Source of the DNA: Deltaproteobacteria bacterium HGW-Deltaproteobacteria-12 | GTDB lineage: Bacteria; Desulfobacterota; Syntrophia; Syntrophales; Smithellaceae | Length of the DNA: 64,000 nt | Assembly: GCA_002840565.1 (NCBI GenBank) | Contig: PHBK01000008.1 | Span: forward strand, 1 to 64,000 | Direction of reading: 5' to 3' | Part shown: positions 8,313 to 52,350 of the stretch, piece by piece | How the letters are laid out: each line of letters begins with the position of its first letter | Position numbering within the stretch: the first letter of the stretch is position 1 | Notes under the pieces: generated by a model | What the model was told of the DNA's origin: nothing | Database searches by the model: none | The model's input: only the letters and a program-made list of their open reading frames with translations | Position numbers and translations under genes: made by a program

Positions 8313-8412
8313 GACAAGCTTGAAAAAGGCAAACCGTTTGAAAAGGCGGGACGCAAAGTTACTGGCCTAAGTCCGTTTTTGTACCGGGATATGGCAGCAG
8401 AACTGCCGGGCA
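8313..8412 (+). promoter_or_regulatory. GEMM-I class riboswitch (cyclic di-GMP-I or 3',3'-cGAMP)
   Basis: The aptamer is recognisable from its conserved core. GGCAAACC lies at 8328-8335. A hairpin CCGTTT-GAAA-AGGCGG with a GNRA tetraloop lies at about 8334-8349. Then come GGGACGCAAAG (8348-8358), GGCCTAA (8364-8370), and a second hairpin GGCAGC-agaa-CTGCC at about 8393-8407. This matches the GEMM-I motif, which binds c-di-GMP; a subgroup found in Geobacter and relatives prefers 3',3'-cGAMP. It lies 80 bases before the prepilin peptidase and so ties pilus assembly to a cyclic dinucleotide. I see no clear terminator downstream, so the mode of control (translation or otherwise) is open. Confidence 0.85.
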
Positions 8413-48815: not shown

Positions 48816-49168
48816 GGGGGCGTACCGGTTTCGACGGGGACATTTGAAGTTGTAGAAGCGTACCGAGGTTCCTACAGGCCTCGTAAAACAGGTAGGAAAC
48901 ATATAATCGCAGAAAACTACGATTACGCATTAGCCGCTTAGACGGCTAACGTTTTGCCCGGTTTGCCTGTCGGCTGGACCAGAACGTCATTTAGACAGGA
49001 TACCCAAACTTCTTGCCTGGGGGAGGGCGGCGACAATTTACAGGATAGCGCGGGGCGATCCGGCCTTAGGGAGCAATTCAGCGTGAAGGTTCTAAAACGA
49101 AGGCTACGTACGTAGATGCTACAGCGGAAGGTTTTCGGACGCGGGTTCAATTCCCGCCGCCTCCACCA
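48816..49168 (+). ncRNA. ssrA: tmRNA (ssrA)
   Basis: A 353-nt one-piece tmRNA. The acceptor pairs GGGGGCG (48816-48822) with CGCCTCC (49158-49164), followed by A and an encoded CCA (49166-49168). T arm GCGGG-TTCAATT-CCCGC. The tag frame starts at GCA 48909 and ends at TAG 48939-48941, giving AENYDYALAA, with the usual ALAA degron. Its 3' end is the left attachment site of the following island. Confidence 0.97.
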
Positions 49169-49188: not shown

Positions 49189-49611
49189 TTATTTAACACC
49201 CTTTGCACCCTCAAAATCCGGTATCAAAGCAGTATCAATCTTTGATATCGGTATTACCTCTGCACCACGCCTGTAAATTGATAAAATGTCATCGTCTTGA
49301 GCCAGTCCTAAATAGCGTTCAAATGCTTTATTAGTTTTGCTCATAGCCGCTTCTTTTATTTGCTCAGGGGAATAATGCCTTCTTAGTGCTCTGACCGTTG
49401 AATGACGAGTGCCGCCGAAAAGGTCTACATCTTCAACGCCCAAATTAGCGCAAGCCTTCACCCACCATTTGTAAAAATACTTAATCCCGAAAGGTTTGTT
49501 TTCGACACAACGGGGAGCGGTTTCGTCTCCGACGAGCTTTGGTTGAGCCCATTCTCGCCGGAACCGCATGAATATGCCTTTCCGTATAAAATTCGAATAG
49601 TATTCATTATG
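49189..49611 (-). pseudogene. Truncated tyrosine-recombinase (phage-type integrase), C-terminal part
   Basis: About 140 codons open back to a stop at 49612-49614, with an ATG only at 49569. FGIKYFYKWWVKACANLGVEDVDLFGGTRHSTVRAL gives the second Arg box (TRHSTVRAL) and MSKTNKAFERYL the catalytic Tyr. The N-terminal arm- and core-binding domains and the first catalytic Arg are missing, so it cannot be active as it stands. It is closer to island integrases placed beside tRNA/tmRNA genes than to IntI; I see no IntI-specific insertion in the remaining part. Confidence 0.78.
49221..49237 (+). repeat. Left copy of 17-bp subterminal direct repeat
   Basis: GTATCAAAGCAGTATCA at 49221-49237 returns as GTATCAAAGCGGTATCA at 52268-52284, one mismatch, both 60-82 bases inside the att copies. 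The left copy falls in the 3' end of the integrase remnant. Candidate integrase arm-type sites or part of the original attachment region. Confidence 0.6.
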
Positions 49612-49663
49612 TCATAAGCTCCAGAAGACCGTCTGATTTCTTTACAGTGGACAAATTTTCCAT

Positions 49664-49811
49664 AAAAAACCAACTTGGTTTTTAGTCCATATTATCGTGA
49701 AATACCAAGTGGCAAAATTTAATTCTGTCTGATTTTATAATGATATTTCCCTTTTCATTCGGATTCTAAAGGAGTAAACTGGCAACAAATATCGGAAAAA
49801 ACCAACTTGGT
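49664..49811 (+). repeat. Pair of 16-bp direct repeats with palindromic core before the first cassette
   Basis: AAAAAACCAACTTGGT occurs at 49664-49679 and again, identical, at 49796-49811. Each holds the 11-base palindrome ACCAACTTGGT. A partial third copy, ACCAAGTGG, lies near 49703. The second repeat ends nine bases before the cassette edge at 49821. The stretch 49612-49820 has no gene. The repeats could be operators governing cassette expression or recombinase-binding sites. Confidence 0.55.
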
Positions 49812-49820
49812 ATATTAATT

Positions 49821-50505
49821 GTTATGTGACTAAACATGAAGGGAGACAATAAATGCAAAAACTTGTCTGGGATTCAGTCGGTAATCTCAATTCACAAGAG
49901 TATACGTGTGGTTATTGTGGTTCTTCAATAGCATCAGAAAAAGGGTGGTATGGGCACAGGCAAGGCTACAATAATATTTTTGCCACCATTTACATATGTC
50001 ATAAATGCGGGCGGCCAACATTAATAGACGAGACCGAAAATGGTAAGCAAACCCCTGGTGTAGTATTCGGTAATACTGTTTCAGATATCCCTGAAAAAAC
50101 TGTCGGAGACTTGTATTCTGAAGCACGGAAATGCACTGGTGCAGGATCATATACGGCATCAGTTTTATGCTGTAGAAAATTATTAATGCATGTGGCGGTA
50201 TCCAAAGGTGCAAAGGTCGGAGAATCATTTGTCAGTTACGTTGAATACCTAGCCAACAAAAATTACATTCCTCCTGATGCTAAAGACTGGGTAGATCACA
50301 TAAGGAAGAAAAGTAATGAAGCAAACCATGAAATTTCTATTATGGGTAAGGACGATGCAGAGGAGCTTATATCCTTTATCGAAATGCTTCTAAAAGTAAT
50401 TTACGAATTCCCAGCTGCTATTAAGAAAAAATTAACACCACCAAGTAACCCCACATAACAAGACACTCCAGCCGACGCCAAAAAATGGCGCGGCTGAGTT
50501 TAGAC
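49821..50505 (+). mobile_element. Integron-type gene cassette 1 (DUF4145 gene plus attC)
   Basis: The left core GTTATGT (49821-49827) fits GTTRRRY except for one position. It is the exact reverse complement of ACATAAC (50453-50459), the R'' box of the attC-like site that ends this unit. This is the relation expected for one circular cassette opened at G/TT. The unit holds one gene with its own ribosome-binding site and little spacer, as cassettes do. No attI or intI is recognisable upstream. Confidence 0.7.
49853..50458 (+). CDS. Zinc-ribbon DUF4145 protein
   Basis: 201 residues. An N-terminal zinc ribbon with C19-x2-C22 and C49-x2-C52 is followed by a helical DUF4145 domain (about 80-190): DLYSEARKCTGAGSYTASVLCCRKLLMHVA and HIRKKSNEANHEISIMGKDDAEELISFIEMLLKVIYEF. 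DUF4145 occurs alone or fused to restriction and other defence enzymes; its activity is not defined. GGGAG precedes the ATG. The stop codon lies within the R'' box of the attC. Its partner is probably the OLD-type gene in the next cassette (inference). Confidence 0.75.
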   Translation: MQKLVWDSVGNLNSQEYTCGYCGSSIASEKGWYGHRQGYNNIFATIYICHKCGRPTLIDETENGKQTPGVVFGNTVSDIPEKTVGDLYSEARKCTGAGSYTASVLCCRKLLMHVAVSKGAKVGESFVSYVEYLANKNYIPPDAKDWVDHIRKKSNEANHEISIMGKDDAEELISFIEMLLKVIYEFPAAIKKKLTPPSNPT

Positions 50506-50512
50506 GTTATAT
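50453..50512 (+). repeat. attC-like recombination site 1
   Basis: A 60-base site with the full attC architecture. R'' is ACATAAC (50453-50459) and R' is GTTATAT (50506-50512). Between them, CAGCCG (50469-50474) pairs with CGGCTG (50491-50496), A50475 is extrahelical, and CGCCA (50476-50480) pairs with TGGCG (50486-50490) across an AAAAA loop. Size, bulge and GC-rich L''/L' arms closely resemble the short attC sites of resistance cassettes such as aadA. The recombination point would be between G50506 and T50507. Confidence 0.75.
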
Positions 50513-50524
50513 TAAAGGACTAAT

Positions 50525-52048
50525 ATGATTGAATATCTTTCTGCTAAGAATCATAAGGCTCTCAAGCATGCTCAACTTAATGAACTTGGAAGAATAAATA
50601 TTATATGTGGAAAAAACAACAGTGGAAAAACATCATTGTTAGAAGCTTTATGTGAAAAAAACAAATTTGGTATTGGAAAAACAATAAAATCTAATGAAGA
50701 ATGGTTATTAGACTTATTCAAAAGTCAAACTGGAAGATATTCAAATCCTGTCCCAAGAATTTCAAATGACTGGTTTAATCAATATATACAAAACGTGTCC
50801 CATAATAATGTGATTTGGTTTTCTGACCAAAGCGAGGCTATAATCGCCGATATAAAGAAATCAAAAAAAGAACACAATGTTCTACGTCAGCACGCGGAAA
50901 CCGTGTTTGATTTTAAACCGTTATTAGACAGTTTTTTTAGTAAATCACTAAATTATTATAATCCTGTCCTGATACCTCCTAAAAGGCGTCTTAAATTCAA
51001 ATCCGATATAAATATGAATCAAGAAATCACACCTAGTGGTGACGGAATAATAAACAAATTGTTCTTCCTGAAAAATCAGGATCTTGAATCAACTAGCTAC
51101 AACGTATATAAAAAAATTTATGATACATTCCAGACTATAACAAATTCTAAATTTAATGTGGTTCCAAACAAAGAAAACAATATAGAATTATTTTATCAAA
51201 CTGATCGAGACTGGATACCTGCTGATGCTTGTGGTGTTGGACTTACAGATATATTGATTATTCTAACAGTGCTAAATGTATTTGATAATAATATTTTTTT
51301 TATTGAAGAACCTGAAAATCATTTGCACGCAGATTTTCAAAAAAGACTACTGTCCTATTTAACATCAATTAAAAACAAACAATTCCTTTTAACTACTCAT
51401 TCCGCAACTTTTATCAACACCGATATAATAGATAAGATATTTTATTGTAATAATAATGGAGAAATCAAAGTATCTGACCAAACATCAAAATCAGAAATAA
51501 TAACTTCGCTAGGGTATTCGGTTAGTGAAAATTTAGTTGCAGATCTAATTATTTTGTTAGAGGGCCCGTCAGATATACCCGTGATAAAAGAAATGCTTAA
51601 ATGGGTTGGTGTCCTTCCACACCATAATATTAAATACTGGTCACTCGGTGGCGATATAATGGCTTCTTTAGATCTATCAGTATTTGCAGAGAGAAATAAT
51701 GTGGTTTCTCTCGTAGATTCAGACCCTGGCAGTTCTGCTCAAAGGACTCGCTTTAAAAAGAATTGCGATACTAATCAAATCTTTTGCACAAAATTAAAAC
51801 GATACTCAATTGAAAACTACTTTACAATCAATGCGCTACGTGAAACGTTTCCTGATCAAATACCGTTGAGAGTTAAAGAGATTAACCACATGGAATCTGT
51901 CGACTCACAGATTGGCTTTAAGGCAAAAAACAAGACCATCAAATCCAAAAACTCACAGATAATTAAAAAAATGTCCATTTCTGATATTGCGGAAACTGAC
52001 TTAATGCCATTCTTGAATCACATAAAGAAATTTTTAAAGGTAATTTGA
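50525..52048 (+). CDS. OLD-family ATPase-TOPRIM protein (predicted nuclease)
   Basis: 507 residues. An ABC/SMC-like ATPase comes first: Walker A GKNNSGKTSLLEAL (29-42), GVGLTDILIILTVLNV as signature region, Walker B NIFFIEEPENHLHADF (about 257-272) and the H-loop LLTTHSATFIN. A C-terminal TOPRIM domain follows: LIILLEGPSDIPVIKEML (about 340-357) with the metal-binding Glu, LVDSDPGS (about 397-404) with the DxD, and KRYSIENYF. OLD proteins are ATP-regulated DNases; relatives act in Gabija, retron and PARIS-like defence. A strongly AT-rich gene, unlike the chromosome around it. Confidence 0.85.
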   Translation: MIEYLSAKNHKALKHAQLNELGRINIICGKNNSGKTSLLEALCEKNKFGIGKTIKSNEEWLLDLFKSQTGRYSNPVPRISNDWFNQYIQNVSHNNVIWFSDQSEAIIADIKKSKKEHNVLRQHAETVFDFKPLLDSFFSKSLNYYNPVLIPPKRRLKFKSDINMNQEITPSGDGIINKLFFLKNQDLESTSYNVYKKIYDTFQTITNSKFNVVPNKENNIELFYQTDRDWIPADACGVGLTDILIILTVLNVFDNNIFFIEEPENHLHADFQKRLLSYLTSIKNKQFLLTTHSATFINTDIIDKIFYCNNNGEIKVSDQTSKSEIITSLGYSVSENLVADLIILLEGPSDIPVIKEMLKWVGVLPHHNIKYWSLGGDIMASLDLSVFAERNNVVSLVDSDPGSSAQRTRFKKNCDTNQIFCTKLKRYSIENYFTINALRETFPDQIPLRVKEINHMESVDSQIGFKAKNKTIKSKNSQIIKKMSISDIAETDLMPFLNHIKKFLKVI

Positions 52049-52065
52049 AATTATTGGATTAAATA

Positions 52066-52135
52066 ATATAACTAGCGGCAATCCATACGATCGCTACGCT
52101 CCGGTTGATTTTTTCGTTGGGCTACTGAGTTGAAT
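52066..52135 (+). repeat. attC-like recombination site 2
   Basis: R'' ATATAAC (52066-52072) is the exact reverse complement of GTTATAT (50506-50512), the left core of this second cassette. The right core GTTGAAT (52129-52135) fits GTTRRRY perfectly. Inside, TAGC (52073-52076) pairs with GCTA (52121-52124) and CAA (52079-52081) with TTG (52117-52119), leaving one extra G in the left arm, the asymmetry typical of L''/L'. The inner stem is weak, so by structure alone this site is less certain than site 1. Confidence 0.55.
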
Positions 52136-52350
52136 ATCCTCTAAACATCCTCTAATTTAAAAAGAAGCTAAAAAAATTAATCTTTTACGGTGTTTGTTTG
52201 CAGGTTCAAATTCTGCGACATGAATGAGAGAGGAGGTTCAAGTTACTAATTAGAGTCGTATGGGTTTGTATCAAAGCGGTATCAGTATCAAATCAACCCT
52301 AATCAAATCAAGTAGTAACAACGTGGAACGCGGGTTCAATTCCTGCCGCC
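52136..52350. other. Right end of the island with attachment-site copy
   Basis: No gene. It holds a T-arm-like palindrome GCAGG-TTCAAAT-TCTGC (52200-52216), the right copy of the 17-base subterminal repeat (52268-52284), and the att copy at 52328-52350 (ACGCGGGTTCAATTCC..., one mismatch to 49139-49161). From 52351 to 52527 I see only the lead-in to the next gene. Confidence 0.7.

Follow-up and report, generated by a model that had tools for sequence, protein, structure and literature searches.

A probable integron array that keeps attI and two cassettes after loss of intI, within an ssrA island of the Smithella group

The DNA analyzed here, a 64-kb stretch termed the window, very probably contains an integron array that keeps its attI site, a presumed Pc promoter and two gene cassettes but has lost the integrase gene intI beyond about 18 codons, and that lies in an ssrA island whose own integrase is truncated. 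The source genome has several arrays that carry attI but not intI, this one among them, and many more are found in the family. Sequence comparisons lean slightly toward a broader reading, in which Syntrophaceae (the Smithella group) would have decentralized integrons, with up to about 15 intI-less attI landing sites per genome loaded in trans by one resident integrase or none. IntI encoded elsewhere, formerly resident or present in other strains would load and exchange cassettes at these satellite attI sites, and Pc would drive the cassettes located there. The features of the locus are as follows.

48816..49168, + strand: ssrA (tmRNA), the insertion target of the island (ARAGORN; Rfam RF00023)
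49139..49161, + strand: left direct repeat, inside the ssrA 3ʹ end (23 bp, 96% identical to the right copy)
49189..49569, - strand: C-terminal remnant of a tyrosine integrase of the ssrA-island type, 126 aa (intact relatives, 410-433 aa)
49607..49660, - strand: intI stub, start codon plus about 18 codons (MENLSTVKKSDGLLELMT), in register with the intact IntI of genomes G018, G012 and G013
49650..49823, + strand: attI region with presumed Pc promoter (full-length profile match, 115.4 bits, E 4e-34)
49822..50506, + strand: cassette 1, 685 bp (5ʹ core and Rʹʹ box 7/7; attC by model R1)
49853..50458, + strand: cassette 1 ORF, 201 aa, DUF4145 with Cys-rich N-terminus (PF13643, 44.3 bits)
50453..50512, + strand: attC 1 (R1, 46.8 bits, E 1e-9)
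50507..52116, + strand: cassette 2, 1610 bp (5ʹ core and Rʹʹ box 7/7; attC by model R1)
50525..52048, + strand: cassette 2 ORF, 507 aa, AAA ATPase of the OLD/AriA/GajA type (PF13175, PF13304)
52066..52122, + strand: attC 2 (R1, 27.4 bits, E 1.4e-4)
52328..52350, + strand: right direct repeat, copy of the ssrA 3ʹ end (23 bp, 96% identical to the left copy)

An earlier note, made from the letters of the window, had proposed two cassettes bounded by matching core boxes, and this part of its reading is borne out. All four boxes are in place (GTTATGT at 49821, ACATAAC at 50453, GTTATAT at 50506 and ATATAAC at 52066), and in both cassettes the 5ʹ core is the exact 7/7 reverse complement of the cassette's own Rʹʹ box. 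Among relatives, first cassettes match their own Rʹʹ box in 42% of cases versus 2.3% of shuffled pairings, and the 7/7 match is therefore a valid criterion. Both attC sites are also recognized by the covariance model R1, which was built from 10 aligned attC sites, all from intI-bearing contigs of relatives with the window sites left out, and run over the 64-kb window with filters off; its next-best match anywhere in the window reaches 12.2 bits. An Rfam scan of the window returned no attC family; away from the array, it identified a c-di-GMP-I riboswitch at 8318-8410 (78 bits). As the note had described, the single-stranded bottom strand of attC 1 adopts the strong textbook fold of a short attC, with an extrahelical base (z -5.6), but degeneracy of the inner L boxes leaves attC 2 without a strong bottom-strand fold (z -0.5). 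Over 41-47 bp, attC 2 is 85-91% identical to attC sites of relatives' integrons, and its Rʹ box (GTTGGGC) is part of the adjoining DNA or of a lost cassette. The weak structure of attC 2 would fit the idea that attC and attI are chance look-alikes, a reading with practically no weight left: the independent attC and attI models both match at the expected spacing, with the 12.2-bit runner-up far below, and chance is therefore already refuted. A site close to attC 1 occurs on plasmid pTBH10 of Thiolapillus brandeum (L039 2987-3046), just before an IS91-family transposase gene.

The cassette 1 ORF ends with a stop codon inside the attC Rʹʹ box and has few relatives, one of 61% identity in G058, without attC nearby, and one of 31% in G054. 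The latter, a distant DUF4145 relative, heads an attC array (L141 550-1770, G054:C23). Relatives of the cassette 2 ORF were absent from 99 related genomes at E 1e-20. This ORF weakly matches NsnB, AbiLi, AriA and GajA in PADLOC, and AriA and OLD among PDB structures; TOPRIM-like EGPSD and DSD motifs were spotted by eye. Both cassettes are probably anti-phage genes, a guess drawn from weak profile matches.

Upstream of cassette 1, the window matches over its full length an attI profile whose training set came from other genomes only. The crossover, GTATATTAATTG^TT, falls between G49821 and T49822, and cassette 1 starts exactly there. Homology to intI-linked attI sequences spans more than 170 bp and reaches into the start of intI, where, read leftward from attI, it ends after about 18 codons; BLAST relates the left flank to the DNA immediately upstream of intI in G018 and G012. 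A search of plasmid DNA with the left flank gave no match. Of the features of a complete integron, the locus retains attI and attC cassettes and lacks an intI gene, apart from the roughly 18 codons. The earlier note had called it a CALIN-like, intI-less, integron-derived array in an ssrA island; the array and the lack of intI stand, but the attI region and the truncated intI start had been missed, and their presence at the left flank makes the locus a decapitated integron, not simply a cluster of attC sites. The region of the presumed Pc is conserved, and a sigma-70 scan of 49661-49823 found no promoter-like site and no excess over shuffles. The palindrome-like sequence AAAAAACCAACTTGGT occurs twice in the attI region (49664-49679 and 49796-49811), its second copy touching the crossover core; the two copies are possibly binding sites of the integrase or a regulator.

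The attI match also bears on whether the array is an ordinary CALIN formed when cassettes inserted at a secondary, attG-like genomic site. According to passages of PMC12901181 and PMC12444791, IntI can use such attG sites, and some core sites of relatives, with just 10-50 bp of shared upstream sequence, may themselves be secondary sites. The homology of the window to intI-linked attI, including the intI start, makes this origin very improbable overall; the profile match refutes it for the window and leaves it as a possible account of the short-homology sites.

The source assembly (3.99 Mb in 64 contigs; completeness 100%, contamination 5.35%) contains no IntI by the criterion applied, a TIGR02249 match above the family cut-off of 265 bits: its best match, 80.9 bits, is at the level of XerC/XerD. 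A profile search found intI above this cut-off in 45 of 99 related genomes, including two of the three same-genus genomes, contrary to the earlier suggestion that integrons are not prominent in this lineage. All the genomes are drafts, mostly MAGs, and an apparent absence of intI may for this reason reflect an assembly gap. It is accordingly conceivable, although unlikely, that the loss in the source genome is only apparent, the gene having fallen into a gap or been binned away, and that the window array is a side array of a normal integron. The 64 contigs, the tendency of integrons to break assemblies (PMC9024848) and the intI genes of same-genus genomes fit that account, but the window locus is contiguous with no intI beside attI, and no IntI was found in the assemblies of four genomes with 8-15 attI cores each (G010, G014, G022 and G041).

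The earlier note was right about the island itself: two 23-bp copies of the tmRNA 3ʹ end, the direct repeats of an ssrA island, flank a 3.2-kb segment that lacks an intact island integrase. The integrase remnant shares 71% identity with truncated versions in G028 (beside ssrA) and G031 (near ssrA), and 58-63% with full-length integrases; a phage protein search with it gave no match. In G028, which belongs to another genus of the same family, the same truncated integrase adjoins ssrA; an attI core comes next, and then two different attC cassettes. This arrangement suggests that the two islands share a backbone in which cassettes were replaced, although, with the attI part diverged, they may have been assembled independently. 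At G004:C14:183667-186120, an ssrA query matches at both ends only, with the middle missing and extra copies of the 3ʹ part; this is a divergent or rearranged tmRNA region.

Besides the window, the source genome has about 10 other attC clusters or single sites. R1 finds 29 candidate attC sites in it, the weakest of them doubtful, with at least nine on contig C26, three on C1, two each on C21, C63 and C9, and several singles. Regions of the attI type occur on C9 (the window), C53, C29 and C21, and a copy without attC on C20. The C26 array of nine attC sites (L082, G000:C26, 1500-9860) lies between tadA and rsgA and has neither intI nor a recognizable attI. Genes of the tRNA type neighbor three loci, namely ssrA in the window, tRNA-Thr near C53 and tRNA-Ser near C26. 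A general link of attI copies to tRNA genes was rejected, such genes being present in the fetched stretch for only 2 of 60 relatives' sites.

The multiplicity of attI is evident across the family. A 14-base attI core was counted about 171 times across 50 of the 99 related genomes, versus three times for the reversed pattern, with 15 copies in G041, 13 each in G022 and G014, and 12 in G012. Faulty assembly does not explain the multiplicity, since two copies lie on a single 940-kb contig of G016 and three on a 44.6-kb contig of G022. Sixty copies from 11 genomes were fetched for inspection. Intact intI lies beside only two (L191 and L209), and partial intI was seen at three more (L176, L225 and L228, the last with an internal deletion). 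Of the 58 copies that lack an intact intI, 34 are followed by at least one attC; for some copies, the contig ends too close by for either intI or attC to be visible. Around the 60 copies, 59 attC matches are downstream on the same strand, two are upstream and none is on the opposite strand; the median distance from attI to the first attC is 665 bp (36 sites with attC). An independent, exact search with a 20-base core in named genomes yielded 85 contig stretches, mostly from Syntrophaceae, Smithella and Syntrophus, and also from some Nitrospirae and Omnitrophota; attC sites lie within 4 kb downstream of 35 of the 76 copies without intact intI, and none on the opposite strand.

A Pif1/RecD2-like helicase gene adjoins intI in G012 (L033); the same gene stands directly beside an intI-less attI in G022, G016 and G041 (L192, L224 and L328), and the helicase locus of G013 (L228) is the one whose intI has an internal deletion. 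In G041:C27 (L258 5777-6331, also L319), two attI cores spaced 535 bp apart flank a gene, an arrangement like that of a cassette terminated by attI sequence rather than attC. The left ends of homology differ between attI copies and the intI stubs span about 5 to 82 codons, for which reasons a mobile unit with fixed ends was ruled out.

The boundaries of the attI copies give evidence of recombination. Homology breaks off 2-6 nt beyond the G^TT crossover in 333 of 398 pairs, the first 2 nt being guaranteed because the 14-mer pattern fixes GTT; a single pair shares more than 31 nt past it. Positions 49648-49823 of the window are 95.5% identical by BLAST to a stretch of C53 in the same genome that also precedes a cassette; the first cassettes differ, and homology ends at the crossover. 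L175 and L176, two attI copies of one genome, are 98.5% identical and likewise have different first cassettes. One cassette family begins at the same base in each of four settings: it follows an attC in the intI-bearing integron of G018, on C1 of the source genome and in a G008 solo array, and in G022 it comes immediately after a solo attI. Orthologous solo loci also differ in their cassettes. Those of G016 and G041 are similar from -1508 to +3 (84%), and those of G022 and G041 share attI at 90% and the right flank at 92%. The sequence footprints that loading in trans would leave are the orientation of attC, crossover-precise boundaries and swapped cassettes.

Some of these data could also be produced if a complete integron once stood at each locus and decayed in place through separate intI deletions, with nothing acting in trans since, an account that deserves real consideration but is less than probable. 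The range of stub lengths and the internal deletion in L228 agree with it, as do the varying left ends of homology and the loss of intI at the orthologous helicase-attI locus of G016, G022 and G041, and loading before intI loss would account for part of the cassette differences. It is countered by near-identical attI copies within one genome that already have different first cassettes (window and C53; L175 and L176) and by the orthologous solo loci with different cassettes, in assemblies without IntI, that of G016 included. Since assemblies with 8-15 cores show no IntI, an enzyme that loads in trans might be supplied by other cells, or might be another kind of recombinase.

By description, an integron has a single attI next to its intI, and cassettes found elsewhere count as debris (CALINs) or rare off-target insertions. 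With two attC sites and no intI nearby, the window locus agrees with the IntegronFinder definition of a CALIN, a cluster of attC sites lacking the integron integrase (PMC9024848), but a complete attI and the intI stub are retained, and genomes of the family contain many such attI copies each. Both CALINs and the loss of intI are already well known (PMC9024848, PMC12444791, PMC2426708). In passages of the latter two papers, intI pseudogenes or loss together with CALINs at other loci occur in Xanthomonas (PMC12444791) and in a survey (PMC2426708), and cassettes there likewise outlast the decay of intI, at several loci per genome; the decay concerns one ancestral locus plus CALINs, however, and multi-copy attI is not mentioned in them. 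Insertion of single cassettes at attG (Loot et al. 2024, as cited in passages of PMC12901181 and PMC12444791) similarly places cassettes away from the intI-linked attI, but attG targets, as described there, are unrelated to attI, whereas the window target is an attI with over 170 bp of upstream homology. Delta-attI-type gene cassettes, in which attI sequence is found away from its intI-linked position (PMC12901181), share that displacement and are resembled by the G041:C27 gene, but the window cassettes end in attC, not attI. A search of open-licence papers found no report on dispersed or multi-copy intI-less attI sites or on Syntrophaceae integrons, and no earlier description of many scattered intI-less attI sites per genome with different, exchanged cassettes.

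The attI search of standard software is limited to class 1 (PMC9024848), so attI sites outside class 1 are overlooked, and a share of the arrays called CALINs may therefore be of the type described here. If the attI copies are dispersed and still exchanging, one integrase could feed many independently placed, separately expressed loci, and, if this is true, the cassette reservoir can outlive the loss of the enzyme.
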